From positions 2,542,001 to 2,606,000 of the forward strand of contig JAUJYN010000020.1 of assembly GCA_030737835.1 (NCBI GenBank): 64,000 nt of DNA. Reading direction: 5' to 3'. Of the stretch, positions 2,341 to 60,497 are shown piece by piece (the first letter of the stretch is position 1; each line of letters starts with the position of its first letter). This DNA is from Acorus gramineus (lineage: Eukaryota > Streptophyta > Magnoliopsida > Acorales > Acoraceae). The notes under the pieces were generated by a model, which saw nothing but the letters and a program-made list of their open reading frames with translations, had not been told where the DNA came from and ran no database searches. Position numbers and translations under genes: made by a program.

Positions 2341-2349
2341 TCCCTTCTC

Positions 2350-4109: not shown

Positions 4110-4510
4110 GGTAAACGAGGCACTGATGTCGTGGAGAGCAGATTGCCTTGATGCTGTCCAACCATGGCCGTCCTAACATCAGCAGGTATCTTGTGTCAAT
4201 GTCGGCCACGAAGCATTCTGCTTCACAAATTAGGGGACCGACGGCCAGTTCAAATAATCTGGGACCGCAAATGACCTTCCCGGAATGGTTAAATGTTTGG
4301 ATGGTGGAGTGCACCAGCTGGACGAAGGGACGGCCTCGCCTGGGTTTCTCCTGGTAGGTGGAGCAAGTCATGATGTTCATTTCTGACCCCGGGTCAATAA
4401 AAATGTTGTTCAGGGGTATGGCCTGGAGTCGCCCGCGAACGTGGAGGGGGTATACTCGCAGCCTTCGATCAGGGAGGTCTTTGTCGGTGAAGGAGATGGT
4501 CATTGGACGG
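4110..4510 (-). pseudogene. First retropepsin-like domain of the Tat-like fossil
   Basis: It follows the acidic gag tail in the same reading frame. The sequence runs PLHVRGRLQAIPLNNIFID, then a SEMNIMTCSTYQ loop, LFELAVGPL, and YLLMLGRPWLDSIKAICS, ending RHQCLVYHSW. The layout matches Tat-type retropepsins, which cleave the Gag-Pol polyprotein inside virus-like particles. It is one part of a broken element. Confidence 0.6.
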
Positions 4511-4519
4511 CAGGGGCCA

Positions 4520-5540: not shown

Positions 5541-5559
5541 CCAAGACTTGTGGTGTAAT

Positions 5560-5891
5560 CCCCTCTACCGTGGGGGTTTATGCCTTTCGCGGCGATGGTC
5601 CAACCCTATGGTTGATAGGTGGGGACTGGGTCTGGACTACTGGGGCTCCACAACAGGAAATCCTGTTGTGGCGGTCAATTAGAAGCTGGTACGTGGTGCA
5701 GTCCCCGTACGAAAGACTCGTACGAAGTTCTGGACTCAGGCTTTGTAACATCATGTCAATTTTCTTGACATTCCATTAGTTGCATGCTAGTTCTATAGAC
5801 TAGGGTGCGCCACCTAGACACGTACTGTTCAAATTCCTCCAGAGGCCTCATTCTTTCTACGGTTAGGTCTGAGATAGATAGAGGGGATCCT
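5560..5891 (-). pseudogene. Gag middle part of the Tat-like fossil
   Basis: Near 5800-5890 the minus strand reads SDLTVERMRPLEEFEQYVSR, followed by WRTLVYR. This matches the Tat-type Gag signature in which a basic L-x-x-x-x-Q/R segment leads to E-x-x-x-x-F-I-x-R-W-R. The remainder up to 5560 is low in recognisable motifs. A B-type LTR begins at 5892, directly next to it. The gag fragment at 9486-9699 is the part expected just upstream, which suggests the LTR landed inside this gag. Confidence 0.55.
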
Positions 5892-15061: not shown

Positions 15062-18037
15062 TGTCACGCCCCAGGGCGGCCGTCCCCGGGACGCGGTAAG
15101 GGTATACATGATATCAGCAGTCAATACAGGAGATCAATAATATACCATAAACAACAGCTAAAAAGACAACAAAAGGGCTGACATGATGTATACACAGAAA
15201 GCGGAAGCTAAAAAGACTGAGTCTGTAAATCAACAACACTTTACAAACTCGATACATAATCATATGTCCTGTGAGAGCCAATATATCCACAATACATCCA
15301 AATACAATCCATACTGGGTGCCCAAGCACAGAAATATATACATACAATGAGAAGGAAGGATGCTGATGGCCTCAAAACTCGAGGGACGTGGCGCTACTCC
15401 GCTACTGGTGCAGTCGCTCGGGAAGCTCCTCCTTCAAGTCCGCCTCGGTAATCACTGAAAAAAATAATTATGCGAGGGGTGAGCCACACGCTCAGTGAAT
15501 AGCACAACCCATGCATCACAGTTTATATTAACCACATTTAATCAAGTCACTAGCCTCAAAGTGGCATAAACAACACAAATCCGGGGGTTCGTTACATCGC
15601 CGAACCACCACACCCTCACCCTCACCCTCACCCCTCAATAGGTGACAAAGGATATTGGGACTTAGTAGGCTGATAATCATCCTCACACAATCCAGTGGGT
15701 CGCCACATCGCCGGCCCACCACAACCTCACCCTCACCCCTCAATAGGTGACATAGGCTCTTGGGACTGACTAGGCTGTTGGTCACCCTTGGTCCACCGAT
15801 AGTCTCTCCCCACTCCGTAGGCCGTTTGGCCACTCCCACATTCAGCACAGTCCGTCCCAAATCAGGAGGTGCCTACTGATGGGAGCCCTTTCACGGGACG
15901 ACCTTTCTCACGCTGAGGTAATCTCTACACGGATCCAACGAAGGGAACAGAACAGCCTATCCATCGCATATGATCCACTCGGATCCGCTGACAACACATC
16001 TCTACAACTCTAATGTCTTGAATTCTTCAGAATTCCTCCAGCGTGCATAACCAAGATGCGGGGAATACATAAGATAATAATGAGGAAAAGAGACCTTGGG
16101 AGGGCAACCTGAGGTCCCGATGTAGGACATCCCGCCAACCAAACAAGGAACACGGAGTACCCTAGCCCGGGTCTCCATGTTGACCTCGCAAGGTCCCCCT
16201 TAATATTCCCCAAGGCATGCTAAAAATATCTTAAGTCTGCATTTAATTTAATAAATCAAACTAATAGAACGCATGCATAGGTCGAGGCTTTCCTAGCATG
16301 ATAACGAGGTGACAGGATGCACGGCTCATACACATATCCTAAGGGTGCAAGTCCCTAACATACAAGTCTAGGGTGGCATGCAATGTACACATAAATCATG
16401 CTTGCATGGATTACAATATAACAGTTAATATTAACTATGCTGCCCCAGGGGAGGACGGTACACGCCCAAGTGCATGTAGCACCTCCCAATTGGGTTGGGT
16501 TGTCCCACTCACCGGTAACCGGGTCATCGCGCGACCGTCCGTCAAGATCTGCAAGACAGGGTAATCAACCCGGTGAGTAAAATACACAAATACTACAAAA
16601 TACTCAAAAATACACAAATAAATACCCAACACTCGGGCAAACGTACATACGGCCCGTACGCACGTTAGCCCGAGCACCCCGACTCACTCCCGCACCCCCG
16701 GCAACCACCCGCACGGCCACCCGCCCCCAGGTGCACCGCCGCGCCCCAGCCCGCGCACCCAGGCGCCCTGCCGAGCCCCTGCCCGCACGCCAGGACACGC
16801 CGCCGAGCTCCCCGGGTGCACCGCGCGCTCACTGCGCCCCAGCGCAGCAGCCCGCGCGCACACCGCACGCCCCGCGCCCAGCGCCTCGCCCCACGCGCAC
16901 AACCACGCGCATCACCGCGCGCGCACACCGCGCGCACCACCGCTGGCCTCACCGCGCACCCTGCGCGCACCACCGCTCGCATCACCCACTCGACCAGCAC
17001 CCCCAGCACGCCCAGCGCCCAGCACGTCCAGCACGCCCAGTACACTCGCGCCTGCGCCACCCGATCGCACGCCCGCGCGCACGCGCGCGCGCACCCTGCT
17101 ACTGCATGCCTGATGCGCTGCCTGCTGCGCCTGTGCTGCCATCCTGCCCGGGGCAGACTACCACCCTGCCCGAGCACCTCTACCACCGGCCACCAATGGC
17201 CTCCGACCGCCCCCCAACCCCACCCTCCACACTCAACCCCACCCTCCTAACATGCATCTAGACATGAAAAAGAAGGAAGGAACCCTTACCCAAGGGAAGG
17301 AGAGGAAAGGAAGGGAACCGGAGGATCTTCGTGCACCGAAACGCCTCCCAACGGATCTCCACCACCAAGACCTCCTCCTACCTCAAAAGGGGCTGAAAAT
17401 AGGGGAGAATAGAGGGGGTTAGAGGGGGCCAAACTTGTCGGAACTCGAATCCGAGAACACCGGGGGATAGATCGGGACCGGATCTAACCTTTCTATGTTT
17501 TGAGTTTTAAGGTTCAAGCACCCTAGGTGGCTCAAAATCAAGAAAAAGAGAGAGGGGGAGAGAGAAATCTCATTTGAGAAGATGATGAATAGTGGGGGAG
17601 ACTTTTAGATTCACTTAAATATAACCCTCACTTAGATTAGGGTTAAGCAAGGTTAATTAGGCTTAAGTGAGGCTTTAAGTGGGATTTGACTTGGGTCAAC
17701 CCAACCACACAAAAAAACAAAAAGGGTTGACCAAGTCATGGGCCCACTTTGACCGAGTCAACTCTCCCAATGACTTCTCGCTCGGTCAAAACCCGGATAC
17801 GCCCTGGAACTGTGAAATTTTGGAAACGTTACCGGAATTCGATGAAATTTTCGTGAGTGGCTTAGAATGGCACCAGGACACATAATATGCAGTTAGATTT
17901 TCAATCGGAGTCCTCAAACACAGGACGATAGCTAACAGTCCAAAATTTTGCGGTTCCGATCGAAAAACGAAAAAACTCAAAAACTGCCAAAATGCTCCAA
18001 TGGTTACCAGCAGGTAAAAAGTGACACATATATAACA
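15062..18037 (-). mobile_element. Solo A/C-type Gypsy LTR with 5-bp target duplication
   Basis: It begins TGTCACGCCCCAGGGCGG and ends GTGACACATATATAACA, so both termini are whole. The flanks TTATG/TTACG are the target duplication. Inside, in sense order from the right, are the U3 part (17600-18037), an exon with GGT-type repeats, intron 1 (16549-17289), the 36-nt exon, and an intron-2 part with CACCCTCACCCT runs near 15605-15630. The lack of any internal region means recombination between two LTRs removed it. No coding capacity. Confidence 0.9.
16549..17289 (-). other. Putative LTR intron 1 with CpG-rich core
   Basis: In sense it starts CCTTGG|GTAAGG at 17289 and ends TTGCAG|ATCTTGACGGACGG at 16549. 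The core 16660-17110 is nearly all G and C, with dense CpG and no evident long open unit of biological sense. The next exon (16513-16548) ends before GTGAGTGG. Same boundaries as in the other A/C-type LTRs. Confidence 0.6.
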
Positions 18038-18618: not shown

Positions 18619-18696
18619 GTAAGTGTTGTTGTAGTTGTTGATCTCCCCTCTCTCAAGCACCTTTTCATGAACTTCCCCCCCCCCCCTGATTTTCAG
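18619..18696 (+). other. Candidate short leader intron (intron 0)
   Basis: A donor-like TTTTGT|GTAAGTG is followed 78 nt later by a C-tract and TGATTTTCAG|CCAAG. In element A2 the same place has ATG|GTAAGG and CTGTTTCAG|CCATT, 91 nt apart in both LTRs. The LTR at 42103-44506 lacks the C-tract and acceptor and goes straight into the exon at CCAAG. The donor choice is uncertain because the upstream exon is not well conserved. Confidence 0.45.
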
Positions 18697-18810: not shown

Positions 18811-19396
18811 GTGAGCTCTTCCCCTTCTTTTCTTGATTTTTCATGGCTTAGGGGGTTGTGGGGAGGTCATGCATGCTAGGTAATTGGTTTAGGGTGAGTG
18901 AGAAGTGTGGAGGAGGGTTAAAAGAGGGTTAGGGAAGGCTGGGCGCACGCTGGGGGCTGTCTGCAGCGCGAGCAGGCGCGCGCGCAGGAGGGTGCTGGCA
19001 GGCGCAGGCGGGCGCGCAGACGCGTGCAGGCGAGTGCGCGCGAGCGCGTGGGTGTGCGCGGAGTGGGCGCGCGGGTGCACGTGGGCGCTGGCGCGAGCGG
19101 GGGTGCGCGTGGGGCGTGCGTGCTGGCGTGCGCGAGCGTCCGCACGCGCGGGGTATGCATCTGGGGGCTGGGCTGGGGGTCAGCGGGCGCGAGCACGTGC
19201 GTGCGTGTGCTGGGGCATGCGTGGGGCTGCCCAGGGTCTCGGGTAGGTGCTGGGGCACCTAGGCATGCGTGCGTACGCGCGTGCTCGCATGCGTGCGAGC
19301 CCGTATGTGTGCATGTCTAAGTCTTTGGTATTTCTAATGTTTTCTAAGTGTTAAATTGTGATGTTACTCACCCAATTTGATGCCCTTACCTTGCAG
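18811..19396 (+). other. LTR intron 1 (586 nt) with CpG-rich core
   Basis: The donor is CTCCCAAG|GTGAGCTC at 18811 and the acceptor CCTTGCAG|ATCTCGTC ending at 19396. The closely related LTR at 42103-44506 carries CCATCCCAAG directly followed by ATCTCGTCGG, so exactly this interval, from GT to AG, is missing there. That is the expected product of splicing followed by reverse transcription. The core 18940-19320 is CpG-rich and full of GCGCG and CGTGCG runs. Confidence 0.75.
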
Positions 19397-21560
19397 ATCT
19401 CGTCAGAAGGGATGCACGAGGTCCCGGGTAATGGTGAGTGGTTCGATCCAATCCCCTCCCTCTCGGGATGCGCTCGACTCGCGTAGACGCGCGTCGCACA
19501 TCGGTGGGGCCCCCCCCCCCCTAGCTATACTACTTTTGTAGATAAGTAGTATGGCCATGCTTAAGCTATAATATGTAGATATCTTGCATGCTAGGCTTAT
19601 ATACATGTATTGTATTCATGTATGAATGATTGTGTTGCATGAGCCCCTCTAGTATGGGCAATGTGTGTTGTAAATGTGTATGGATGTATAGAATATGGCA
19701 TGTCTTAGGTAGTATGGTAATACTACTCCCACCATACTAATGGGAATATAGAGTATGAGTAAGTCTGGGTTAATAACGGGCACCTACCTAATATTCCCTT
19801 GCGATAAGACTCGAGGGCGTGGTGTAGCTGTTGCGCCCATGCTAATGGGGCAAAGCTATGACCAGCTTTATGAGATGATGATCTCTCTCGCCCTCTCCCT
19901 CTGAACGAACTGAGTAAGTAGATGCGATTTCCTACTCGACTCAGGTTCGTTTGGAATATTGGCATGCACCTATTAGTGCGGGAGACCGCGCTTGACCCTT
20001 TCTTTAAGTTGGCAATATACAATGCATGCATGTTGCTTATGTGATTAATGACCCTGTATACATGTTGTATGATTTATTATGATGTGATCCATGTTAGGGA
20101 GTGTCCCTATAATTATTAAATGATTCTGCATACGGTTCATGCAAATAGCTGGATATATTTATATGCGCATGTTAAAAACTGATAGGCCTATCTGAAATAG
20201 GCATGGGTATGACCCGCTGTCGGGTTGTACCTTAATAATTAGAGCGCTAGCGATATAATCGCCCCGTGCATCCGGCGATGCACTCGTTTGGAATTCAGGA
20301 GAATTCAGTAGCTTATGGGATTATTTCTATGTGAGAGCATAGGTAACCTCTTTGTGTCTGAGCGACGCAACGGTGTGGGAGTACAGTAGTATTCGATATC
20401 TCGATAAGTGATTATCGAGAGTAGTTGTTTTCCATTGGGTTCGCTTTGCGAACATGGAATGTTTACTCCCAATGTCGTCCGTGTTGAAGAGGCCCGGGTT
20501 GTAGCTGTCCTGACAGAGGGCTCCCATCCGTAGGTACCACCGATGCATTCAGGAGCGTACTGATCGTGGGAGTATACCAGGTAGAGGCTACCCGGGAGAG
20601 GGTTAACGAATGATATTGCGAGCGTGGAATCGTTCTCCCCTTCGTTGGATCCGATGTAGGAACTCCCCGGCGTTAAAGCTGTCCTGACAGAGGGCTCCCA
20701 TCCATAGGTACCACCAATGCGTTTGGAAGCATACTGATCGTGGGGGTATACCAGGTAGAGGCTACTTGGGGAAAGGGCTACCAGTGGAACAAGGGTGTAG
20801 AGCAGTCTAAGTCTCTTCCAAAAGTCCTATGTCACCCCTAAAGGGTGAGGGTGAGGATGAGGTGAAGACACATCGCCGCGTGACCCATTCGTTGTTCGTC
20901 CGTTCCCATAGTTGTTGGGTCCGGTCTCGTGTCAATGTTCAAAGACATCGTTGGGTAGTTACCTCGATGGAGATGATCCAGTAGTGTTGTGTGGACCAGT
21001 AATCCCGGGTCTCCTCGACCAACGGTATGGTCTCTCCCCAAAAGTCCCAAGAGTCTCCCTCCGGGAGTGAGGGTGAGGTTGGTCGCGCTGCCGCGTGACC
21101 CTGTTATCCATGGGTTTCCACCCATGTTTTCCTTGAAAGGAAAGTGCTTATGTATTGAACTGTTGTATGGTGATTGGTTTCCAGCCACTCACTGAGCTTG
21201 TAGCTCACCCCTCGCATACTGTTTCTTTTCAGGGGCAGTGTTGGGTGTGGAGTTGGAGCTTCCCTGTGGCGTGGTCTTATGGGCGTGGAGCGTTCTTCCG
21301 GCGGGTGGCGAGTACGAGGCTGTCAGCAGTCCTAGAGTCATTGTATGTATTGTAAATCGTGCATGTGGCACAGGTTGTATTTTCTTTGGTCTAGACTAGG
21401 CTCTCACAGGACAGTGATTGTGTATTCGAGTCTGTAATAATGTTTTTGGTTTACAAACATGGTTTATATATTATGCTTCCGCTTTTCAATCAGTTATCAT
21501 TATCCTTGCTTTGCCACCTTGTGTGTTGTTGTTGGAGTCTTTATTGACCTCAGGTATTGA

Positions 21561-22467: not shown

Positions 22468-23220
22468 CCTACGGATGGGAGCCCTCTATCAGGAAAGCTT
22501 TTCCAACGCCGGGGAGTTCCTACACGGATCCAACGAAGGGGAGAACGATTCCACGCTCGCAATATCATTCGTTAGCCCTCTCCCGGGTAGCCTCTACCTG
22601 GTATACCCCCATGATCAGTACATCTTGCCGCATGCATCGATAGTACCTACAAGTGGGGGCCCTCTATCAGGACAGCTACAACCCGGGCCACTTCAACACA
22701 GACAACATTGGGAGGAAACACTCCATGTTCGCAAAGCGAACCCAATGGAAAAACAACTACTCTCGATAATCACCTATCGATGATGTCGAATACTATTGTA
22801 CTCCCACACGATTGCGTCACTCGGACACAAGGGGGTTGCCTCTGCTCTCACGCAGAAATAATCCCAAGGCACATAACCCAACAGGCAGTTCATATATAGC
22901 CTAGCATGGGTAGGCCTAGCTTAATGCCACAACTACCGGCTTAACAAAACCAATAAGATAATGAATTCTTTTGAATTCCAAACGAGTGCATCGCTTGGAT
23001 GCACGGGAGCGATTACATCGCTAGCGCTCTAACTAATAAGGTACAACTCGACAACGGGTCATAACCACGCCTATTTCAGATAGGCCTAATCAGTTTTAAC
23101 ATGCGCATATATATATCCAGGAGAATTATATCTAGTTATGTACATGAACTACATGCACGATAACCTATCAAATAATTATAGGGATACTCCCTAACATGGA
23201 TTTACATCATAAACAACATG
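22468..23220 (-). mobile_element. B-type LTR piece, near-duplicate of 33651-34395
   Basis: From CCTACGGATGGGAGCCC to CATCATAAACAACAT it follows the B-type LTR at 33651-34395 almost base for base, including shared oddities such as a CATGCATCGATAGTACC stretch. The two pieces flank the A1 element and its extra LTR. The likeness is high enough to suggest that one is a duplicate of the other made around the A1 region. Confidence 0.7.
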
Positions 23221-23287
23221 CCAGGACTCATCTCTACGAAAAAGAAAACAATTGGCTCTGACAAGACCAGGCTCTGATACCAACTTT
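23221..23287 (-). mobile_element. Remnant of a second A-type internal region with primer-binding site
   Basis: These 67 bp match the stretch at 30822-30890 next to the 5' LTR of element A1. They include the initiator-Met primer-binding site (GGCTCTGATACCA, 23270-23282). They lie on the outer side of the LTR at 23288-25947, where a simple element would have host flank. So this LTR has internal sequence on both sides, the mark of a tandem, LTR-sharing arrangement. Confidence 0.8.
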
Positions 23288-25947
23288 TGTCACGCCCCAG
23301 GGCGGCCTTCCCCGAGGCGCGGCAATAGTATATATGATATTAGCAGTCTATACAGGAGGTCAATAACATACTCTAAACAACATCAAAATGACAACACAGA
23401 CAACAATGAGGCTGACATAATATATACACAAATAGCGGAAACTAAAAGACTGAATCTGTAATTCAAAGACATTACAGACTCGATACATAATCAACTGTCC
23501 TGTGAGAGCCAATATATACAACGACATCCAAATATAATACAAACGTGTGTCCAAGCAGGCAATACAATACATACAACCAAAGGGGGGGATGCTGACTGGC
23601 CTCTCACACTCAGAGCGTGACGCTGCTCCGCTACAGCTGATGCGCCTCGGGGAGCTCCTCCTTCAAATCCGACTCAAATATAACTGGAGAAAAATATATG
23701 CGAGGGGTGAGCCACACGCTCAGTGAATAGCACAACCCATGCATCACAATTCATATTAACCTCAAATTATTCATAGCCTCTAAGTGGCAGTAACTACACA
23801 ATCCAGTGGGTCGCTACATCGCCGACCCACTACACCCTCACCCTCACCCTCAAGGGTAACATGGTCTTTTGGGACTGACTAGGCTGTTAATCACCCTTGG
23901 TCCACCGATAGTCTCTCCTCCACTCCGTAGCTTGCCTGGTCTACTCCCACGATCAGCACAGTTCAACGCATCGGAGGTGCCTACAGATGGGAGCCTTCTG
24001 TCAGGACAGCCTGTCTAACGCTGAGGAGTCCCTACATGGATCCAACGAAGGGAAGAGAAACAGCCTACCGACACGGATACGATCCTCTTGGATCCACCGA
24101 CACCGATTGCAACTCTACAAATGTCATGAATTCTTCAGAATTCCACCAGGGCGCATAACTAAGATGCGGGGAGACACATATTATAACAACGAGGTTATAA
24201 TATTCTCTAAGGCATGCTAATAACCATAAGCTCGCATTTGATTTAAATAAATTAAACTAAATGGGACACATGCATAGGTCGAGGCTCTCCTAGCATGAAA
24301 ACATGGTATCAGGATGTATAGGCCTCTATCCACAACATAAGGGTGCATATTCCTAGCATACAAAGCCTAAGGTGGCATGGATACGACATAATGATCATGC
24401 ATAGCACACATTACACTTATTACAAATTAATACGCAATTATGGTGCCCCAGGGGAGGGCAATGCACGACTACGTGCATCGAACGCCTCCCTACTGGGTTG
24501 GATTGTCCCACTCACCAATACCCGGGTCGTCGCGTGACCGCCCGTCAAGATCTGCAAGACATGGGAAACCAAAATGGTGAGTAAAATACACAAATACACA
24601 AGAAATATGCTAGAAATACCCAACACTCGGACAAGCATGCATACGGGCCCGTACGCACGCGAGTCCGAGTGCCCTGACACACTCCCGCACCCCCGGGCAG
24701 CCATGCGCACGGCCACCCGCACGCGCACGCACGGGTGCGCACGCACGCACGCACACCCGCGCCCCGGGCGCACTGCCGCGCCCCTGCCCGCTCGCCCAGA
24801 CACGCCGCACGCTCGCGCGCGCCCGCGCGCACCACGCCTTCAGCCCTGCGCCTACCCGCGCGTACTGCGCCCCTGCGCAGCACCCCGCGCGCACCGCACG
24901 TACTGCGCCCCTGTGCAGCGCTCCGCGCGCACGCCCGCGCGTACACGTGAACTCGCCCAGTGCCCCCGACAGCGCGCGCCTGCTCTGCCTGCGTGTGCAG
25001 ACTCGCGTGCACTCACGCGGATGACCCCGCACGCGTGCTCGAGCCAACCCCACCACCTCCCTCAGCCCTCCCACACCCCAAACACTCATGCACACCTTGC
25101 ACATCCATAAACACATCCTAAACTTGCATCTAAACAAGAAATAGGGGGGAGGAAAGCTTACCCAAAGTGAGGAAGGGAAGGGGAGGAACTCGGGTGCTCT
25201 TCGCGCACCGATTCGCCACCACCAAAGCCACCACTACCAAGACCTCTTCTCAGCCTAAGAGGGGCTGAAAACAGAGGAGAAAAGGGAGCTAAGAGAGGAG
25301 GAAAACAAAGGGGAATGGAAATCCTAGACCATGGAAAGATAGATCGGGTCCTCACCTTCCGTTTCTCCTTCTAGGGTTTCTCAATCCAACACCTTCTACT
25401 AGGTCAAAAGTGGAAAACAAAGAGAGGAGATGAGAGAGCTTGAGAGAGATGGAGAAGAAGATGAATAGGGGGGGACACTATTCTTGGGCGTGGACCTTAA
25501 GTCACCACACACACACCACACACACTCACACACTCACACACTTAGAATTAATTAGGTTAAGCTAGGTTAGGTGAACTTTGACTTGGGTCAACCTAACCAC
25601 ACTAGAAAACAAAAGATTTTGACCAAGTCAAGGGTCAAACTTGACTGGGCCAAAGTCATCTTTGACTTGGTCAAGTCTCCCAATGACTTTTCGATTGGTC
25701 AAAACCCGGATACGATTCAGAACTGTGAAATTCTGAACGTTACCGGAATTCGATGAAATTTTTGTGAGTGGCTTGGAATGGCACCAGGACACATAATATG
25801 CAGTTACATTTTCAATCGGATCCTTAGGCTCAGGATGATAGCTAAAAGTCTGAAATTTTAGCGGTTCCGATCGAAAAAGAAAAAGTTAAAAAACTGCCAG
25901 AATGCTCCAATGGTGACCAGAAGGCAAAAAGTGACACATATATAACA
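23288..25947 (-). mobile_element. 3' LTR of element A1 (shared with a second internal remnant)
   Basis: Termini are TGTCACGCCCCAGGGCGG and GTGACACATATATAACA. In sense order: U3 with GGTCAA repeats (25550-25947), exon 1, intron 1 (24552-25161), 36-nt exon, then an intron-2-like part with the GAATTC pair near 24128. It abuts the polypurine tract on its right and a primer-binding site on its left. Confidence 0.9.
24552..25161 (-). other. Putative LTR intron 1 of the A1 3' LTR
   Basis: Sense donor CTTTGG|GTAAGC at 25161 and acceptor GTCTTGCAG|ATCTTGACGG at 24552, 610 nt. The core 24640-25020 is CpG-rich with repeats of a GCGCACTGC type. It is alignable with the core of the other A1 LTR (32240-32710) but with several length differences. 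Confidence 0.6.
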
Positions 25948-30890: not shown

Positions 30891-33466
30891 TGTCACGCCC
30901 CAGGGCGGCCGTCCCGAGGCGCGGCAATGGTATATATGATATCAGCAGTCTATACAGGAGGTCAATAACATACTCTAAACAACATCAAAATGACAACACA
31001 GACAACAATGAGGCTGACATAATATATACACAAATAGCAGAAGCTAAAAGACTGAATCTGTAATTCAAAAACATATTACAGACTCGATACATAATCAACT
31101 GTCCTGTGAGAGCCAATATATACAACGACATCCACATATAATACAAACGTGTTCCGAAGCACGGAATACAATACATACAATCAAAGGGGGGGATGCTGAA
31201 TGGCCTCTCACACTCAGAGCGTGACGCTGCTCCGCTACTGCTGACGTGCCTCGGGGAGCTCCTCCTTCAAATCCGACTCAAATATACCTGGAGAAAAATA
31301 TATGCGAGGGGTGAGCCACATGCTCAGTGAATAGCACAACCCATGCATCACAATTCATATTAACCTCAAATTATTCATAGCCTCTAAGTGGCAGTAACTA
31401 CACAATCCAGTGGGTCGCTACATCGCCGACCCACCACACCCTCACCCTCACACTCAAACTGGTGACATGGTCTTTTGGGACTGACTAGGCTGTTAATCAC
31501 CCTTGGTCCACCGATAGTCTCTCCCCCACTCCGTAGCTCGCCTGGTCTACTCCCACGATCATCACAGTCCGATGCATCGGAGGTACCTACAAATGGGAGC
31601 CCTCTGTCAGGACGGCCTGTCTAACGCTGGGGAGTCCCTACACGGATCCAATGAAGGGAAGAGAAGCAGCCTACCCACACGGATACGATCCTCTTGGATT
31701 CGCCGACACCGATTGCAACTCTACAAATGTCATGAATTCTTCAGAATTCCACCAGGGCGCATAACTAAGATGCGGGGAGACACATATTATAACAACGAGG
31801 TTATAATATTCTCTAAGGCATGCTAATAACCGTAAGCTCGCATTTGATTTAAATAAATTAAACTAAATGAGAAACATGCGTAGGTCGAGGCTCTCCTAGC
31901 ATGAAAACATGGTATCAGGATGTATAGACCTCTATCCACAACATAAGGGTGCATATTCCTAGCATACAAGCCTAAGGTGGCATGGATACAATATAATGAT
32001 CATGCATAGCACAGATTACACTTATTACAAGTTAATACGCAATTATGGTGCCCTAGGGGTGGGCAATGCACGACTACGTGCATCGAACACCTCCATGCTG
32101 GGTTGGATTGTCCCACTCACCAATACCCGGGTCATCGCGTGACCGCCCGTCAAGATCTGCAAGACATGGAAAACCAAAATGGTGAGTAAAATACACAATT
32201 ACGCAAGAAATACGATAGAAATACCCAACACTCGGACAAGCATGCATACGGGCTCGTACGCACGCGAGTCCGAGTGCTCCGACACACTCCCGCACCCCTG
32301 GGCAGCCATGCGCACGGCCACCCGCACGTGCACGCACGCATGGGTGCGCACGCACGCACGCACCCCCCGCGCCCCGGGCGCACTGCCGCGCCCCAACCCG
32401 CGCGCCCAGGCACACTGCCGCGCCCCTGCCCGCTCTCCCAGACACGCCGCATGCTCGTGCGCACGCTCGCTCACACCCGCGCACACCGCGCGTCCAGCCC
32501 TGCGCCTACCCGCGGGTACTGCGCCCCTGTGCAGCACCCCGCGCGCACCCCTGTGCGCACCGCACGCACTACTCCCCTGCGCAGCGCTCCACGTGCACGC
32601 CGGTGCGCCTGCGCGTACGCGCACACTTCCCCAGCGCCCCCGACTGCGCGCGCCTGCTCTGCCTGCGCGTGTAGACTAGCGCGCACGGGCGCGGATGACC
32701 CCGCACGCGCACCCGAGCCAACCCTACCACCTCCCTCAGCCCTCCCACACCCCAAACACTCATGCACACCTTGCAATGCCATAAACACATCCTAAACATG
32801 CATCTAAACAAGAAATAGGGGGAGGAAAGCTTACCCAAAGAGAGGAAGGAAGGGAGGGAAACTCGGGTGCTCTTCGTGCACCGATTCGACACCACCAAGA
32901 CCATCACTACCAAGACCTCTTCTCAGCCTAAGAGGGGCTGAAAACAGAGGAGAAAAGGGATCTAAGAGAGGAGGAAAGCAAAGGGGAATGCTAATCCAAG
33001 ACCATGGAAAGATAGATCGGGCCACACACACACAACACACTCTCACACACTCACACACTTAGAATTAATTAGGTTAAGCTAGGTTAGGTGAACTTTGACT
33101 TGGGTCAACCTATCCACATAAGAAAACAAAAGATTTTGACCAAGTCAAGGGTCAAACTTGACTTGGTCAAAGTCATCTTTGACTTGGTCAAGTCTCTCAA
33201 TGACTTTTCGCTTGGTCAAAACCCGGATACGATTCAGAGCTGGGTAATTCTGAACGTTACCGGAATTCGATGAAATTTTTGTGAGTGGCTTGAAATGGCT
33301 CCAGGACACATAATATGCAGATAGATTTTCAATCGGAGTCCTTAGGCTCAGGATGATAACTAAAAGTCCGAAATTTTAGCGGTTCCGATTGAAAAAAGAA
33401 AAAGTTGAAAAACTGCCAGAATGCTCCAATGGTTACCAGAAGGCTAAAAGTGACACATATATAACA
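30891..33466 (-). mobile_element. 5' LTR of element A1
   Basis: Termini TGTCACGCCCCAGGGCGG and GTGACACATATATAACA; 2576 bp. It holds the same modules as 23288-25947, with an intron-1 block at 32157-32834, the GAATTC pair near 31736, and a CACCCTCACCCTCACACTC run near 31437. By-eye divergence from the 3' LTR is about 5% near the terminus. Confidence 0.9.
32157..32834 (-). other. Putative LTR intron 1 of the A1 5' LTR
   Basis: Sense donor CTTTGG|GTAAGC at 32834 and acceptor GTCTTGCAG|ATCTTGACGG at 32157, 678 nt. This is 68 nt longer than its sister in the other A1 LTR although the two began identical; the extra length is in the CpG-rich core (32240-32710). Confidence 0.6.
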
Positions 33467-35085: not shown

Positions 35086-35604
35086 CTGCAAAACACAACC
35101 AATGATCCACAATTAAAATATGGAACCTCCTATCACACATATAAGCCTACTTCATGAAGGCCCTAACCCCTGATACTTCCATATTATCACCCAAGACACA
35201 TGCAAACAACTCCTTGACACTCAATCAAGCAAAACTGCCAAACCTGCTGCAACCAGCCCTACTAATTGGTCTCCACAGCACCCAATACACTTCCAAAAAT
35301 TATGAAATAAATCATGCACATTCTCTGATATGCTGGGATCATAATCCATGAAGACATTAGAACCTAATTTTGCCTCTACAAGCCCGAAACAAATTATTTC
35401 CAGAAGCAGGTCAATTCCTACGCGAATCTGGACAGGCCATGCAAAACTGGTTCTAACTTACACCACAGATATCATAATGACCCCAAATTTCATATATAAT
35501 AACTAGACACATAGATGATCATATCATATGAAGACATAATCCTAGAAATGTGCCTCTAAATACTAGATTCACTGAGATCTTTAAAATACAGAGTGCTGCC
35601 TTAC
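35086..35604 (-). other. Putative LTR intron 1, AT-rich variant
   Basis: The boundaries are as in the other copies (sense GTTTCG|GTAAGG at 35604; acceptor TTTTGCAG|ATCTCGTAG at 35086), but the 519-nt body is ordinary AT-rich sequence with no CpG-rich core. It holds short stretches such as CAGAAGCAGGTCAATTCC and ACACCACAGATATCATAATG that resemble LTRs of other plant Tekay elements as I recall them. It may be the ancestral form of the intron, or a separate module. No coding potential is seen. Confidence 0.5.
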
Positions 35605-39363: not shown

Positions 39364-39976
39364 CTGCAAGACAGGCATTTATACGGTGAGTAAAATCCAC
39401 AATTACCCCAAAATACCCAAAAATACATTAAACATACTCTAAAAATACCCTATACTCGGGCAAACGTACATACGGCACGTACGCACGCTAGCCCGAGCAC
39501 TCCGGCTCACTCCCGCACCACCGGCAACCACCCGCACGGCCACCCGACCCCTCGGGTGCGCCGCCGCGCCTCAGCCCGCTCACCCAGGCGCCGTCGGGCC
39601 CCTGCCCGCCGCCCTGGACCCGCAGCCGAGCCACCCGGTGCACCGCGCCCACTGCGCCCCGCCGCAGCAGCCCGCGCCCACCCCCGCGCTCCCCGAGCAC
39701 ACCACACGAGCACGCCGCACGCCCCGCGCGCACCCCGCGCGCACCGCCAGCTCCGCCCCGAGCGCACCCCGCGCGCACCGCCAGCTCCGCCTCGCGTGCA
39801 CCCCGCGCGCACCGCCAGCTCCGCCCCACGCGCACTCTGCGCGCACCACCAGCTCCCACACCGCGCGCACGCCTGCCTCTGCCCAGCGCCCCGCGCGCAC
39901 GCCCCACAGCGGTGCCCAGCGCCCAGCACCCTCCTAGCATACATCTAAGCAAGAAAGAGAGGAAAAAGAGGCTTAC
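39364..39976 (-). other. Putative LTR intron 1 of the C-type solo LTR
   Basis: Sense donor CCCCTTG|GTAAGCC at 39976; acceptor TGTCTTGCAG|ATCTTGACGG at 39364; 613 nt. The CpG-rich core (39450-39930) holds three tandem copies of a roughly 36-bp unit (GCGCACCGCCAGCTCCGCC) where the sister intron at 59149-60497 has one, but lacks about 790 bp present in the sister. Confidence 0.65.
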
Positions 39977-42102: not shown

Positions 42103-44506
42103 TGTTATGCCTGTGTCATTTGGAGCCATTTTGGTTAAGTCTTTGTCACATCTGGGTCATTCACGGCCTTTTTCTTTTTGGATCGGAGTCGCTAAAATTT
42201 TGGCTTTTAGCTACCTGCAAGAGTTAGATTACTCCAATTTGAAATCTAACTGTATATTATGGGTCCTGGTTCCGTTCTGTACTACCCATATAAATTTCAT
42301 CGAATTCCGGTAACATTTTGAAAAGTATGCAGTTTTGAATCGCATCCGGGTTTGGCCGTTACTGGATTGAGAGGTGAGAATTGTTTGTGCACGTCTAAGT
42401 GGGGATTTGATGTATTTTGACCAAGTGATGAAGCTCCTTTGTTTGTTTGTGTTGGTGAGGGTTGACAAGCCAACCTCACCTAACACCTTTTTCTCCATTT
42501 AAAGCCCCCAAAATGTGTGTGTGTGTGTACACTTCCCTCTCTCTCTCCCCTCTCAAGCCATCCGTGGCTTTCTTTTCTCCTCTCCCTCTCATTTGTGTGT
42601 ATTGGGTGGAGAAGAAGAAGGAGAGGGTTCATGAAGGAGGAAATGGAGGTGCTTGTAGAAGCCAAGAAAACATGAGGAGGGCTGTGGAGGTGGTGGTAGT
42701 GGTGGTGGTGGTTGAGGTGGTCGCGGGTGCATCGAGGGCCCCCGAATCTCCCCCTTTCATTCCCCATCCCAAGATCTCGTCGGATGGGATGCGCGAGGTC
42801 CCGGGTTGCGGTGAGTGGTTTGGTCCAATCCCCCCCCCCCCCTCTCGAGATGCGCTCGACGCGCGTAGTCGTGCGTCGCGCATCGATGGGGCATCTTAGC
42901 AATACTACTTGTGTAGATAAGTAGTATGGCCATGCTTAAGCTATAATATGTTAGATATCTTGCATGCTAGGCTTATATACATGTATTGTATCCATGTATG
43001 AATGATTGTGTTGCATGCGCCCCTCTAGTATGGGCATGTATTTTTGGTAATGTGTATGGATGTATAGAATATGGCATGCCTTAGGTAGTATTGTAATACT
43101 ACTCCCACCATATTAATTGGAATATCCAGCATGATTAAGTCTGGGTTAATAACGGGCACCTGCCTAATATTCCCTTGCGATAAGACTCGAGGGCGTGGTG
43201 TAGTTGTTGCACCCATGCTAATGGGGCAAAGCTATGACCAACTTCATGAGATGATGATCTCTCTCGCCCTCTCCCTCTGAACGAACTGAGTAAGTAGATG
43301 CGATTTCCTACTTGACTCAGGTTCGTTTGGAATATTGGCATGCACCTTTTAGTGCGTGAGATCACGCTTGAACCCTTTCTTTTAAGTTGGTGATATCCAA
43401 CGCATGCTTAAGTTATGCCTTGTGTGCTTATGATTAATGGCCACGTATGCAGGATTAAGTGGGCCATACCTTGTATGCATGTTGTATGATTGCTGTTTAT
43501 GATGTAAATCCATGATTAGGGAGTATCCCTATGATTAATTGATATGTGATCGTGCATATGGTTCATGCACGTAGCTAAGATTTAATTCTCCTATAAAATA
43601 TATGCGCATGTTAAAACTAATCAGGCCTATCTGAAATAGGCGTGGGTATGACCCGTTGTCGGGTTGTACCTTATTAGTTAGAGCGCTAGCGATGTAATCG
43701 CCCCCATGCATCCGAGCGATGCACTCATTTGGAATTCAGGAGAATTCATTATCTTATCGGTTTTGTTAAGCCGGTAGTAGTGGCATTAAGCTAGGCCTAA
43801 GGCGTGTATATGAACCGCCTGTTGGGTTATGTGCCTTGGGATTATTTCTGCGTGAGAGCAGAGGCAACCCCCTTGTGTCCGAGCGACGCAACCGTGTGGG
43901 AGTACAATAGTATTCGATATCATCGATATGTGATTATCGAGAGTAGTTGTTTTTCCATTGGGTTCGCTTTGCGAACATGGAGTGTTTCCTCCCAATGTCG
44001 TCCGTGTTGAAGTGGGCCGGGTTAAAGCTGTCCTGACAGAGGGCTCCCATCCGTGGGTACCACCGATGCGTTCAAAAACGTACTGATCGTGGGAGTATAC
44101 CAAGTAGAGGCTACCCGGGAGAGGGCTAACGAATGATATTGCGAGCGTGGAATCGTTCTCCCCTTCGTTGGATCCGATGTAGGAACTTCCCGGCGTTGGA
44201 AAAGCTGTCCTGACAGAGGGCTCCCATCCGTAGGTACCACCGATGCTTTCGGAAGCGTACTGATCGTTGGAGTATACCAGGTAGTGACTACCCGGGGAAA
44301 GGGCTACCGGTGGACCAAGGGTGTAGAGGAGTCTAATCTCTCCAAAAGTCCTATGTCACCTGTAAAGGGTGAGGGTGAGGATGAGGTGAAGACACGTCGC
44401 TGCGTGACCCATTCATGGTTCGTCCGTTCCCATAGTTGTTGGGTCCGGTTACGTATTGATGTTCAAAGACATCGTTGAGCAGTTATCTCGATGTAGATGA
44501 TCCAGT
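42103..44506 (+). mobile_element. B-type LTR lacking intron 1 (processed LTR copy)
   Basis: It starts TGTTATGCCTGTGTCATTTG and is cut at 44506 (GATGATCCAGT) by the next element; the rest lies beyond the window. The U3 part, a TG run (42515-42528), exon 1 with the GGT repeat (42662-42773) and the 37-nt exon (42774-42810) are all present, but exon 1 and the 37-nt exon are fused at CATCCCAAG|ATCTCGTCGG. The donor-to-acceptor interval of the other copies is missing exactly. The upstream short intron with its C-tract also appears absent (junction near 42661/42662). The region after 42811 (GTGAGTGG, repeats, GAATTC pair near 43733) is kept. Confidence 0.85.
42662..42810 (+). other. Fused LTR exons, spliced-form junction at 42773/42774
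   Basis: The left part (42662-42773) matches exon 1 of the LTR at 18697-18810 nearly base for base; the right part (42774-42810) matches its 37-nt exon at 19397-19433. In that copy a 586-nt GTGAGC...TTGCAG interval separates them. The join here falls exactly at the predicted splice site on both sides, with no extra or missing base visible. Confidence 0.8.
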
Positions 44507-45359
44507 TGTCACGCCCCAGGGCGGCCGTCCTTGAGACGTGGCAATAATAAATATTAGCTATCAATACCTGAGGTCAATAAAGACTCCAACAACAACACAC
44601 AAAGTGGCAAAGCATGGATAATGATAACAGACTGAAAAGCAGAAGCATAATATATAAACAATGTCTGTAAACCAAAAATATTATTACAGACCCGAATACA
44701 CAATCACTGTCCTGTGAGAGCCAAGTCTAGACCAAAGAAAATACAACCTGTGCCACATGCCCGATTTACGATACATACAATGACTCTAGGACTACTGACA
44801 GCCTCGCACTCGCCACCCGCCGAAAGAACGCTCCACGCCCATAAGACCATGCTATAGGAAACCTCCAGCTCCACGCCCAACACTGCCCCTGAAAAGAAAC
44901 AGTATGCGAGGGGTGAGCTACAAGCTCAGTGAGTGGCTGGTAACCAATCACCATACAACAGTTCAATACATAAGCACTTTCCTTTCAAGGAAAACATGGG
45001 TGGAAACCCGTGGATAACAGGGTCACGCGGCACCGCGACCAACCTCACCCTCACCCTCACTCCCGGAGGGAGACTCTTGGGACTTTTGGGGAGAGACCAT
45101 ACCGTTGGTCGAGGAGACCCGGGATTACTGGTCTACACAACACTACTAGATCATCTACATCGAGTTAACCACTCAACAATGTTTTTCAACATCAATTCAC
45201 AACCGGACCCAACAACTATGGGAACGGACGAACAACGAATGGGTCACGCGGCGATGTGTCTTCACCTCATCCTCATCCTCACCCTCACCCCTTAGAGGTG
45301 ACATAGGAATTTTGAAAGAGACTTAGACTGCTCTACACCCTTGGTCCACCGGTAGCCCT

Positions 45360-45715
45360 TTTCCCCGCGTAGCCTCTACCTGGTATACTCCCACGATACG
45401 TACGCTTCCGACCGTGTCGGTGGTACCTACGGATGGGAGCCCTCTGTCAGGACAGCTTTAACGCCGGGGAGTTCCTACATCGGATCCAACGAAGGGGAGA
45501 ACGATTCCACGCTCGCAATATCATTCGTTAACCCTCTCCCGGGTAGCCTCTACCTGGTATACTCCCACGATCAGTACGCTCCCGATGCATCAGTGGTACC
45601 TACGGATGGGAGCCCTATGTCAGGACAGCTACAACCCGGGCCCCTTCAACACGGACGACATTGGGAGTAAACATTCCATGTTCGCAAAGCGAACCCAATG
45701 GAAAATAACTACTCT
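45360..45715. repeat. Two tandem units of about 178 bp inside the B-type LTR
   Basis: GTAGCCTCTACCTGGTATAC recurs 178 bp apart (near 45367 and 45545), each followed by CACGATCAGTACGCT-like sequence, GGTACCTACGGATGGGAGCC and CAGGACAGCT. The same pairs or triplets occur in the other B-type LTRs (6720-7090, 20435-20800, 33590-33900, 43975-44300), and single copies in A/C-type LTRs. Confidence 0.75.
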
Positions 45716-47262
45716 CGATAATCACTTATCGAGATATCGAATACTACTGTACTCCCACACCATTGCGTCGCTCAGACACAAAGGGGTTGCCTCTGCTCTC
45801 ACATAGAAATAATCCCATAAGCTAATGAATTCTCCTGAATTCCAAACAAGTGCATCGCTCGGATGCACGGGGCGATTACATCGCTAGCGCTCTAACTAAT
45901 AAGGTACAACCTGACAGCGGGTCATACCCACGCCTATTTCAGATAGGCCTAATTAGTTTTAACATGCGCATAATATTTTAGAGGAGAATTTAATCTTAGT
46001 TGTGTGCATGAACCATATGCACGATCACATATCAATTAATCATAGGGATACTCCCTAATCATATATTTACATCATAATAAATCATACAGCATGCATACAT
46101 GGTCATTAATCACATAAACATACAAAATATACTCTAATATCCGTTGGATATTGCCAACTTAAAAGAAAGGGTCAAGCGCGATCTCGCGCACTAACAGGTG
46201 CATGCCAATATTCCAAACGAACCTGAGTCGAGTAGAAAATCACCTCTACTTACTCAGTTCGTTTAGAGGGAGAGGGCGAGAGAGATCATCATCTCATGAA
46301 GTTGGTCATAGCTTTGCCCCATTAGCATAGGCGCAATAGCTACACCACGCCCTCGAGTCTTATCGCAAGGGAATATTAGGTAGGTGCCCGTTATTAACCC
46401 AGACTTAATCATACTGTATATTCCCATTAATATGGTGGGAGTAGTATTACAATACTACCTAAGACATGCCATATTCTATACATCCATACACATTTACAAC
46501 ATAGATGCCAATACTAGAGGGGCTCATGCAACACAATCATTCATACATGAATACAATACATGTATATAAGCCTAGCATGCAAGATATCTACATATTATAG
46601 CTTAAGCATGGCCATACTACTTATCTACACAAGTAGTATAGCTAGGGGGCCCCATCGATGCGCGACGCGCGACTACGCGCGTCGAGCGCATCCTGAGAGG
46701 GGGGGGGATTGGATCGAACCACTCACCATACAACCCGGGACCTCGCGCATCCCATCCGACGAGATCTGCAAGGTAGGGGCATCAAATTTGGTGAGTAACA
46801 TCACAATTTAACACTTAGAAATCATTAGAAATACCAAAGACTTAGACATGCACGCATACGGGCTCGCACGCATGCGAGCACGCGCGTACGCACGCATGCC
46901 CGGGTGCCCCAACACCTACCCGAGACCCTGGGCAGCCCCGCGCATGCCCCAGCACGCGCACGCACGCGCGGGCACCTCAATGAAAGTGGGAGATTCGGGG
47001 GCCCACGATGCACCCGCGACCACCTCAACCACCACCACCTCCTCAGCCCTCCCTCAGCCTCCTTGGCTGCAAATCACGGGGGGGAGAACAAGATATGAGA
47101 GGGTGCTTGGGAGAGAGGAGATCAACAACTACAACACATGCACAAACACTCACCATCACTTCCTCCTCCACCTTCTCCTTCTCTTTGAGGAAATAACACA
47201 AACACTTGGGGGATGTGTGTGAAAGAGAGAAAGAGAGCCCAAGATGGTAGACGTGGGGAGTG

Positions 47263-47285
47263 AGAGGGAGAGAGAGAGAGAGAGA
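47263..47285. repeat. (GA)n microsatellite
   Basis: A run of about eleven GA units in the leader part of the B-type LTR; shorter GA/CT runs mark the same place in the other B-type LTRs. Confidence 0.9.
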
Positions 47286-47779
47286 TATTTTGGCCAAATA
47301 AATATCTAGAGGGATAGAAATGACCAATTCATCCCTAACTAGAAATTCTTTACATGCTTCACTATAACAGCCATAACTTTCTCCATATAGCTCCGAATTG
47401 CACAATTCAAAATCCGTTGGAAAGCCAAGAAGATTATCTACAACTTTCATGTTTATGCCAAGATCAAATAATCTCTCCAGCTATTCCGAAATGTGAGCTA
47501 AACATTGAACAGGGCTGCTGCCAGAATTTTTCATCCCCGGGGTATACTTGGAAAAATACCCATAACTTTTACTACATGAGTCCAGTTGATCTAATTCCAC
47601 TTTTGTATGAAAGCTAACTCAAAACTGAGCATCTCATAATAAAATCATATTTAAACCTCTTCATCTTGGATTTTAACAAAATTAAATCCAAACACCAATT
47701 CGGAAATACATAACTTCTAGGAGAAAAATTATGTAGCCAAATTTTCAATCAGAGCGCTCCAAATGACACAGGCATAACA

Positions 47780-49033: not shown

Positions 49034-49526
49034 GTAAGTCTTCCTCCTCCCTTAGCTTGTTTAGATGTTTGTTTAGGGTGTGTAAATGGTTATGCATGCT
49101 ATGCATGGGTGTTAGGGGGTGTGGGAGGGCTGAGGAGGGGGTGGAAGGGGCTCGGGCGCGCGCGCGTCTGCGCGCACAGACAGGCGCTGGCGCGCGCAGA
49201 CGGGCGTGCTGGCGGGCGCGCACGCGTTTGCGCAGACGCGCGGGTGTTCGCACGGGGTGCTGCACGGGCGGGCAGTGCATGCGGGTAGGTGTTCGCGCGG
49301 TGTGCGCGGGTACGCGCTGGCTTGGCGCGCGGTGCGCGCGGGCGCGCGCGAGGCAGCGCGTCTGGGCGTGCGGGTTGGGGCACGTGCGCGCGTGCGCATT
49401 CGTGCGTGCGCGTGCTCGCATGCGTGCGGGTCCGTATGCATGCTTGTCCGAGTATTGGGTATTTCTAGTAAATTTCTTATGTATTTGTGTAGTTTACTCA
49501 CCATATTGAATGCCCATGTCTTGTAG
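49034..49526 (+). other. LTR intron 1 of the A2 5' LTR (493 nt)
   Basis: Donor TCTTTGG|GTAAGTCT (close to the plant consensus) and acceptor GTCTTGTAG|ATCTTGACGG. The CpG-rich core is 49140-49440. The sister intron at 56451-56970 differs strongly inside the core but is nearly the same outside it. Confidence 0.65.
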
Positions 49527-55668: not shown

Positions 55669-57557
55669 TGTTATATATGTGTCACTTTTAGCCTTCTGGT
55701 CACCTTTGGGACATTTCTGGCAGTTTTTCAACTTTTTCTTTTTTCGATCGGAACCGCTAAAATTTTGGACTTTTAGCTATCATCATGAGCTTGAGAACTC
55801 CGATTGAAAATCTAACTGCACATTATGTGTCCTGGTGCCATTTCAAACCACTCACGAAAATTTCATCGAATTCCGGTAACGTTTCAGAATTTGGTAGTTC
55901 TAAATCGTATCCGGGTTTTGACCGAGTGGGAATGTCAAAGGGGGGACTTGACCAAGTCAAAGAAGACTTTGACCAAGTCAATTTTGACCATTGACTTGGT
56001 CAATTGGTTTTGTTTTTTTGTGTGGTTGGGTTGACTCAAGTCAATCCCCACCAAAAGCAATTGTTCCAAGTGTGTGAGTGTGTGTGTGTGTGTGTGAGTG
56101 TGTGTGCACTAGTCTTGGGCGTCCACCCCTATTTCCCCTTCTATTCTCTTCTCCATCTCTCACACTCACTCCATCTCATCCCCGCTTCTTTATTTTCCCC
56201 CATTAGAGGTAGTAGAAGAAGAAGACGAAGAAAACCCTAGAAGGGAAAAAGAATGGTAAGGGTGTGATCTATCTTTCCATGGTTTTTGTTTTGATTTCCC
56301 CTTTCTCTACCTCCCTCTCATGGCTTCCCCTCCCCCCCTGTTTCAGCCATTGTTAGGGCTGAGAGTGGCTGAGGTGGTGGTGGTCTTGGTGGTGGCGATT
56401 TGGTGCGCAAAAGCTACCCGAGCTTCCTCCCTTGTTCTTCCTCTCTTTGGGTAAGTCTTCCTCCTCCCTTAGCTTGCTTAGATGTTTGTTTAGGGTGTGT
56501 AAATGGTTATGCATGCTATGCATGGGTGTTAGGGGGTGTGGGAGGGCTGAGGAGGGGGTGGAAGGGGCTCGGGCGCGCGCGCGGAGCCATCCGCGCGCGT
56601 GCGCGCGCGTCTGCGCGCGCAGACAGGCGCGCTGGCAAGCACGCGCTCGTACGCGCGGACACGCGGGCGTGTGCGCGGGGTGCTGTGCGGGCGCGCAGTG
56701 CGCGCAGGTACGAGCTGGCTGGGTGCGCGGTGCGCGCGGGCGCGCGCGAGCGTGTGCGCGTGCGCATTCGTGCGTGCGCGTGCGGGGGGCCATGCGTATG
56801 GCTGCCCGAGGGTTCGGGAGGGTGTCGGGGCACTCGAACTCGCGTGCGTACGCGCGTGCTCGCATGCGTGCGGGTCCATACGCATGCTTGTCCGAGTATT
56901 GGGTATTTCTAGTAAATTTCTTATGTATTTGTGTAGTTTACTCACCATATTAAATGCCCATGTCTTGCAGATCTTGACGGACGGTCACGCAGCGACCCGG
57001 GTTTTGGTGAGTGGGATAATCCAACCCAGTAGGGAGGCGTTCGATGCACGTAGGCGTGCATTGCCCTCCCCTGGGGCACCATAATTGTGTATTAACATGT
57101 AATAAATGTAAAACTATGCTATGCATGATTAATATGTTGTATCCATTCCACATTAGACTGTATGCTAGGGATATGCACCCATATATCATGTATAGAGGCC
57201 TATGCATGCCTAGTCACCATGCCCCTTGATTGGAAAGCCCCGAACTATATATGTTCCCATCTAGTTTAATCTAATTAAATCAAAATGAGAACATATAGTT
57301 ATAAGCATGCCTTAGAGAATATTATAACCTTATTGTTATAATATATGTCTCCCCGCATCTTAGTTATGCGCCCTAGAGGAATTCTTGAGAATTCATGACA
57401 TTATTAGCGTTACAAATCGGTGTCGACGGATCAAAGAGGATCGTATCCGTGTGAGTAGGCTGTCTTCTCCTTTTGGTTGGATCCGATGTAGGGACTCCCC
57501 GGCGTTGGAAAGCTGACTTGACAGAGGGTTCCCGTCCGTAGGTACCTCCGATGCATC
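55669..57557 (+). mobile_element. 3' LTR of element A2, left part
   Basis: Starts TGTTATATATGTGTCAC; same modules as the 5' LTR. It ends at GATGCATC, where the solo LTR 57558-61084 lies, and resumes at 61085 with GCGTCGGACAGTACTG. The uninterrupted form is TGATGCGTCGGACAGTACTG at 50101. Confidence 0.95.
56451..56970 (+). other. LTR intron 1 of the A2 3' LTR (520 nt)
   Basis: Donor TCTTTGG|GTAAGTCT and acceptor GTCTTGCAG|ATCTTGACGG. The core 56560-56890 is CpG-rich but aligns only patchily with the core of the 5' LTR (49140-49440), while the flanking 100-400 bp on either side differ at only a few positions. Confidence 0.65.
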
Positions 57558-59148: not shown

Positions 59149-60497
59149 CTGCAAGACAGGGTATTATATGGTGAGTAAAATCCACAAACACTCCAAAATA
59201 CCCAAGAATACATTAAAATACTCTAAAAATACCCAACACTCGGACAAGCGTACATACGGCCCGTACGCACGCTAGCCTGAGCACTCCGGCTCACTCCCGC
59301 ACCACCGGCAACCTCCCGCACGGCCACCCGACCCTTCGGGTGCGCCGCCGCACCTCAGCCCGCGCGCCCAGGCGCCGCCGGGCCCCTGCCCGCCGCCCTG
59401 GACCCGCAGCCGAGCCACCCGGTGCACCGCGCCCACTGCGCCCCGCCGCAGCAGCCCGCGCGCACCCCCACGCTCCCCGCGCACACCACGCGAGCACGCC
59501 GCACGCCCCGCGCGCACCCCACGCGCACCTCGCGCGCACCGCCAGCTCCGCCCCACGCGCACCCCGCGCGCACCACCAGCTCCCACACCGCGTGCACGCC
59601 TGCCTCTGCCCAGCGCCCCGCGCGCACGCCCCACAGCGGTGCCCAGCGCCCAGCGCCCCAGCGCCCAGTGCCCAGCACCCTCGGCCAGCACCCGGTACCC
59701 GCGACCCAGCGCCCAGCGCTCTGCGCCCAGCACCCGGGACCCTCACCCAGCGCCCACGCGCACGCCAGCGCAACACGCGCCCAGCGCGCCTGGCAGCACG
59801 CGCCCAGCGCGCCTGCTAGCCTGCCCACCCTGCTGCCCGCGTTGCCGGCCTGCGCGCGTCGCCGAGTGGCCCGAGCACCGCTCGCCTGCACGCCCGGGGC
59901 ACTGCCCGCCTGATGCCCGAGCGCCCCTGCCCTGCTCGCCTGCGCGCCCAGCCTGCCAGCCGGCCTGCCAGCGCGCACAACCACTGCCCGCAACCAGCTG
60001 CACCGCACACTTCCATCTGCACCCCCCGAGCGCAAGCCCGCGCGGGCACCCGCGCGCACGCGCTCGCGCACCCAGCAAATTGGTGCACCTGCTCCCAGCC
60101 TACCTGAGCTAGCCCTGCCAGCCTGCCCAGCGCGCACGCCCAGCCCTGCTGGCCCCCAGCGCCAGTCGAGCGCCCGCACACCCAGCCCTGCTGGCCCCCA
60201 GCACCGCCCGAGCGCACGCACTCGCGCACGCCCGCGCGAACGCGCGCGCGCGCCCGCACCAACCACTGCGCCTGCACCACCCAGCGCTGCTGCCCTGCCC
60301 GAGACAGCAGCCTGCCAGCCCGAGCTGCAAGCCTGCCAGCCCGAGCTCCCCTACCACCCACCTCCAACCTCCACCACAGCCTCCGACCGCCTCCCACAGC
60401 CCTCCGACGGCCACCCACCGCCGCCAACCTCCACCCAACCCCATTTCCACCCTCCTAGCATACATCTAAGCAAGAAAGAGAGGAAAAAGAGGCTTAC
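59149..60497 (-). other. Putative LTR intron 1, longest form (1349 nt)
   Basis: Sense donor CCCCTTG|GTAAGCC at 60497; acceptor TGTCTTGCAG|ATCTAGACGG at 59149. The CpG-rich core 59250-60430 contains about 790 bp (near 59660-60450) that is absent from the sister at 39364-39976. Inside are GCGCCCAGC-type short repeats and two copies of an AGCCCTGCTGGCCCCCAGC stretch near 60143 and 60185. The long alanine/arginine-rich reading frames here are by-products of composition. Confidence 0.65.

Follow-up and report, generated by a model that had tools for sequence, protein, structure and literature searches.

According to the available sections of a 2025 review, the LTR retrotransposons of plants are generally intron-free, with exceptions that include Ogre and EVADE (PMC12786077). 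Ogre, a plant LTR retrotransposon of the Tat lineage of Ty3/gypsy, contains an intron that is partly spliced. In the Ty1/copia elements BARE1 and EVADE, short-Gag splicing separates the translated from the genomic RNA, and the intron is located within the coding part, as far as the accessible text of both sources describes it (PMC3735527; PMC12786077). Attempts to amplify DNA copies of this spliced RNA of BARE1 from barley failed, as stated in the accessible part of the barley study (PMC3735527). Spliced transcripts are also described for sunflower Tyran and Varan as well as for Bagy2 and CRR; in the accessible parts of these reports splicing alters the encoded proteins, and no intron is placed in the LTR (PMC7730604; PMC3735527). 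In Ogre, BARE1, EVADE and the others, splicing takes place in or between coding parts, in the sections of the literature available. No description of an intron lying wholly inside a plant LTR was found in the literature searched, which comprised the accessible text of PMC7730604, PMC12786077, PMC6317226, PMC3735527, PMC5838962, PMC7010299 and PMC3694450.

Two further systems show single features of the arrangement reported here. In an experiment of 1985 an intron-marked Ty1 lost its intron through an RNA intermediate, but this was an engineered intron and not a natural one of an LTR (PMC12786077, accessible part). The major splice donor of foamy virus resides inside the LTR and precedes the poly(A) signal; according to the available text, nothing but the donor is located in the 5′ LTR (PMC3694450). 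In the elements of the present study, in contrast, a single LTR contains both the donor and the acceptor of each of three predicted introns. The foamy virus acceptors are situated outside the LTR.

The window, i.e. the whole 64 kb stretch of Acorus gramineus DNA that was analysed, is a stack of retrotransposons that are nested in one another and lie in either orientation. Copies c1 to c8 belong mostly to family B and copies A16 to A59, numbered by their kilobase position, to family A; mixed family features exist in c8 and c1. LTRs of both families begin with TGTTAT and end with GGGGCGTGACA, and a primer-binding site (PBS), TGGTATCAGAGC, directly follows the LTR end of A-type copies. An A-type element on the minus strand (29524–26254) encodes RVP_2, RVT_1, RT_RNaseH and Integrase_H2C2 in that order (Pfam), which corresponds to the pol order PR-RT-RH-IN, rve itself being under the Pfam cut-off. 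By pol order, TG...CA LTR and tRNA primer site the family is a Ty3/gypsy LTR retrotransposon, the domains having been assessed in the A-type element with the body of c1 itself outside view. The internal piece adjoining B-type LTRs is about 70% alike to A-type internal DNA. The lineage may be Tekay/Del chromovirus; when six reading frames were scanned with Pfam no chromodomain was reported, and the integrase frame stops inside an SH3_Tf2-1 match. In a protein search with 8000 candidates scored, those among the 120 matches listed that carry an organism name come from flowering plants. Searches of viral contigs with the RT protein and with an LTR pattern, and of plasmids with megablast, found no relatives.

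Several other structures were seen in the window. At 23207–23300 (minus strand) primer-site sequence comes after a 3′-position A-type LTR, and behind it lies sequence of another LTR in place of a target duplication, an arrangement that is perhaps due to ectopic recombination. A 495-codon open frame at 4090–5577 (minus strand) has no Pfam match and looks by eye like the gag-protease of a different element, and an array that resembles tandem repeats, with a spacing of about 82 nt between the copies, occupies 2343–3223.

The LTR of main interest, c1 (42103–44506, plus strand), is a 5′ or a solo LTR. It starts with TGTTATGCC at 42103, and the sequence flanking it on the left agrees with an uninterrupted relative as far as 42102. 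At 44506 it is interrupted by the end (TGTCACGCCC) of the opposite-strand LTR c3 (44507–47779, minus strand), whose nested insertion removed the 3′ part of c1. As read from the alignments, LTRs of this kind would consist of a short U3 promoter followed by a transcribed leader with three spliceosomal introns: intron 0 of 74–91 nt in those copies with a recognisable donor, intron 1 of 471–1349 nt and intron 2 of 832–2012 nt. Exon 1 measures about 94–122 nt and exon 2 36–39 nt, somewhat more than the 36–37 nt first given for the latter. The c1 copy lacks predicted introns 0 and 1 and consists of exon 0 (42530–42661, its start placed by a TATA-like ATTTAAAG near 42497), exon 1 (42662–42773, 93–94% identical to c2 and c6), the 37-nt exon 2 (42774–42810) and a kept intron 2 (42811–44506) with the donor GTGAGTGG, all on the plus strand; the acceptor side of intron 2 is gone with the nested insertion.

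Exon 2 was found by blast in 12 copies in the window, among them c1. TTG(C/T)AG precedes 11 of these, and CCCAAG precedes c1 alone, which is the only intron-1-free copy (1/12). Both intron ends are held by ten copies, in agreement with the preliminary description, which had counted about ten blocks of 470–1350 nt ending usually in TTGCAG (TTG(C/T)AG in 10/10). The GT(A/G)AG start that it gave applies to nine of these ten; c5 (8753, minus strand) reads GCAAG. In c2 the intron spans 18811–19396 (plus strand, 586 nt, AAG/GTGAGC ... TTGCAG/ATCT). The remaining two-ended copies are located on the plus strand at 49034–49526 (A49) and 56451–56970 (A57) and on the minus strand at 8283–8753 (c5, with the GC donor), 16549–17289 (A16), 24552–25161 (A24), 32157–32834 (A32), 35086–35604 (c4, 519 nt), 39364–39976 (A39) and 59149–60497 (A59, 1349 nt). 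The long intron of A59 is full of GC-rich, repeat-like sequence, and its long open frames are unlikely to be genes. Counting one-ended copies as well, donors read GT(A/G)AG in 12 of 13 and GCAAG in one, c3 being left out since its donor is deleted, and acceptors end with AG in 11 of 11. By this conservation intron 1 is a predicted spliceosomal intron of the GT-AG type. Weight matrices gave weak scores to the c5 GC donor, the c3 acceptor and the c4 intron-2 donor. In addition, the branch-site-like TTACTCACC is present upstream of 10 of the 11 intron-1 acceptors (eight by blast, c2 and A39 by reading); c4 is without it.

In c1 the exons 1 and 2 are joined at 42773/42774 (CCCCATCCCAAG/ATCTCGTCGG), precisely where the preliminary description had placed the fusion. 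Its statement that no base was gained or lost in comparison to the predicted splice product of c2 holds apart from a 2-nt ambiguity: because of a shared AG, three placements of the deletion in c1 versus c2 are equivalent.

Furthermore, c1 lacks intron 0, a loss which the preliminary description had missed, and the edge lies at the acceptor (42661/42662, GTAGAAG/CCAAG). In c2 this intron is predicted at 18619–18696 (plus strand, GT/GTAAGT ... TTTTCAG/CC, 78 nt). A pyrimidine tract and AG/CC mark the acceptor in 13 of the 14 other copies, with CTG/CC in c4, in counts that are not blind since these acceptors, like the donors and acceptors of intron 2, were located with patterns that had been taken from alignments and blast hits. 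At the donor place 74–91 nt upstream, a GT(A/G)AG or GTATG candidate exists in 9 of the 14; four of the other five have a weaker GT, and in A32 the place is deleted. Neither tract nor acceptor is found in c1, where similarity to c2, c3 and c6 starts at GTAGAAG/CCAAG. The match covers the acceptor side only, since exon 0 of c1 has just weak matches elsewhere in the window and no close relative there.

With high probability, as judged from these sequences, c1 is best explained by reverse transcription of a partly spliced RNA. The same mechanism had been put forward in the preliminary description, and the exact absences, the conservation of the splice sites and the polarity of the tree given below support it. 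In the RNA of the c1 ancestor introns 0 and 1 would have been spliced out while intron 2 stayed, and reverse transcription would have copied the leader into a new LTR, giving a DNA copy without introns 0 and 1. In retroviral reverse transcription the strong-stop cDNA, which starts from the primer site, copies the leader and is incorporated into the new LTR. The leader would enter the LTR in the same manner here because the primer-binding site is located just past the LTR end. TATA-like boxes are present upstream of all three introns in c1, in A39 (CTATATAAG) and in A59 (CTATATAAAG, 60824, minus strand), and the introns therefore probably belong to the transcribed portion of the LTR, i.e. to R/U5. 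We infer both the splicing itself and the 5′ origin of the copied RNA end. Since the intron-1 acceptor is kept in 11 of the 12 copies of exon 2, spliced RNA seems to be copied seldom.

An RNA-mediated origin may also have followed another route, in which the spliced part was copied from the LTR at the 3′ end of the RNA or resulted from a template switch between an RNA that was spliced and one that was not. The BARE LTR possesses two promoters whose transcripts have different fates, according to the available text (PMC3735527), and c1 is a mosaic which has kept intron 2: exon 1 is closest to c2 and c6, and the downstream part groups with c4 (support only 70). The position of the TATA boxes of A59 and A39 upstream of the three introns speaks against this route, which we regard as unlikely.

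Much less probable is an origin of c1 from two ordinary DNA deletions, or skips of the reverse transcriptase, at 2-nt AG repeats that coincided by chance with exon boundaries. An AG is shared at both c1 junctions, and imprecise deletions do occur nearby: c3 has lost the last ~12 bases of exon 1 together with the 5′ part of intron 1, and in A32 ~156 nt of exon 0 are missing together with the donor of intron 0. In comparison to c5, moreover, c1 lacks a further 38 and 20 nt at places that are not splice sites. However, in the alignment of c1 and c2 (42660–44509, 1.85 kb) the 586-nt intron 1 is the sole internal absence of at least 15 nt in c1. The other gap is an end gap, which arises from the start of the c1 segment at 42660; its edge lies at the intron-0 acceptor and is the same in a longer alignment. 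If both breakpoints could fall with equal probability anywhere up to 100 nt from the splice sites, the intron-1 join would arise by chance with a probability of 3/(201 × 201) = 7e-5, a value that takes no account of c1 having been picked from 12 copies and that becomes lower with the intron-0 edge. Two exact edges in one copy would be hard to explain by chance deletion, in line with the preliminary description, which had called random loss of just this interval unlikely on the strength of 42773/42774; the acceptor side of intron 0 now adds a second junction. A graded series of deletion ends, named there as evidence against splicing, is absent from the window, in which two imprecise deletions lie nearby.

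In a maximum likelihood tree of 12 copies, calculated from the sequence downstream of the intron-1 acceptor, c1 and c4 are neighbours (ultrafast bootstrap 70) within family B, and family A branches outside (100 for the A/B split). All of the 11 copies other than c1 carry the intron-1 acceptor. As c1 is nested among intron-bearing copies, the introns were lost in c1 and not gained elsewhere. Thus c1 is a derived copy with exact intron absence among intron-bearing relatives, for intron 0 on the acceptor side only. That the c1 leader represents an ancestral intronless state and the other copies gained their introns is highly improbable: c1 is the only copy seen without introns and the unrelated intron 1 of c4 suggests that intron turnover occurs, but in the tree c1 lies within B and the outgroup, A, is intron-bearing, and A and B share a homologous intron 1.

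The splice sites are kept across the two LTR families, and the intron between them varies in length. The intron 1 of c4 is without a match to that of any other copy in the window, with exons and splice-site positions unchanged, and seems to have been replaced. In three close pairs of copies exons 1 and 2 contain no gap bases, versus 70, 117 and 852 in intron 1; a fourth, more distant pair has 3 in exon 1 and 163 in intron 1. A low number of gaps is not special to exons, however, since the first 400 nt of intron 2 are also gap-poor in these four pairs (2, 12, 2 and 16). Identity alone fails to separate exons from introns as well (A24/A32: 0.893 in exon 1, 0.916 in intron 1).

Directly after exon 2, GTGAGTGG is found in 12 of 12 copies. 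Near the LTR ends there are ten pyrimidine-rich YAG acceptors, with CTCACCCC just upstream of nine. From position and strand, donor and acceptor of intron 2 are predicted to belong to one LTR. Nine LTRs hold both ends uninterrupted, with 25–68 ATGs in each predicted intron; in c2 it comprises 1799 nt (19434–21232, plus strand, CTCACCCC ... TTTCTTTTCAG). A nested insertion separates the one remaining acceptor (61375) from the A57 donor to which it presumably belongs. In c1 intron 2 is retained up to the point where the copy is interrupted, and among LTRs with both ends no copy without this intron was seen in a search by exon-2 and acceptor matches only.

The first 400 nt of intron 2 contain 188 ATGs in ten copies versus an expectation of 72.9; the latter is based on mononucleotide shuffles, in which dinucleotide content is not preserved. 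The exons hold 5 versus 13.2 (exon 1) and 6 versus 4.5 (exon 2); as a proof of leader function this depletion is weak, exon 2 showing none. In A24/A32 the predicted exons 0–2 are free of ATGs and introns 0–2 have 37, and nine (7 + 2) occur between the intron-2 acceptor and gag. A motif of about 100 nt (GTCCTGACAGAGGGCTCCCAT...TGGGAG) inside the predicted intron 2 is conserved between the families (20502–20775, 44025–44301, 31519–31618 and others), with two tandem copies in several B-type LTRs. It possibly forms an RNA hairpin. In a prediction from 14 sequences, two truncated ones of the 16 motif matches being left out, 2 of 17 pairs had changes on both sides and the covariation term was −0.34, so that a conserved hairpin was not taken as support; Rfam gave no match at gathering scores.

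The RNA that is copied would normally keep intron 2, which may thereby mark genomic RNA. Its removal would shorten the leader, reduce its number of upstream ATGs and make it more suitable for translating Gag. Tentatively, and with more doubt than confidence, the LTR may be regarded as a built-in splicing cassette, in which the ATG-loaded intron 2 with its hairpin motif acts as a switch between translated and packaged RNA; a packaged genome could then lose introns 0 and 1 but not intron 2. If this is true, the length of some plant LTRs would be due in part to removable leader introns, and the genome itself would record which forms of the RNA were packaged.
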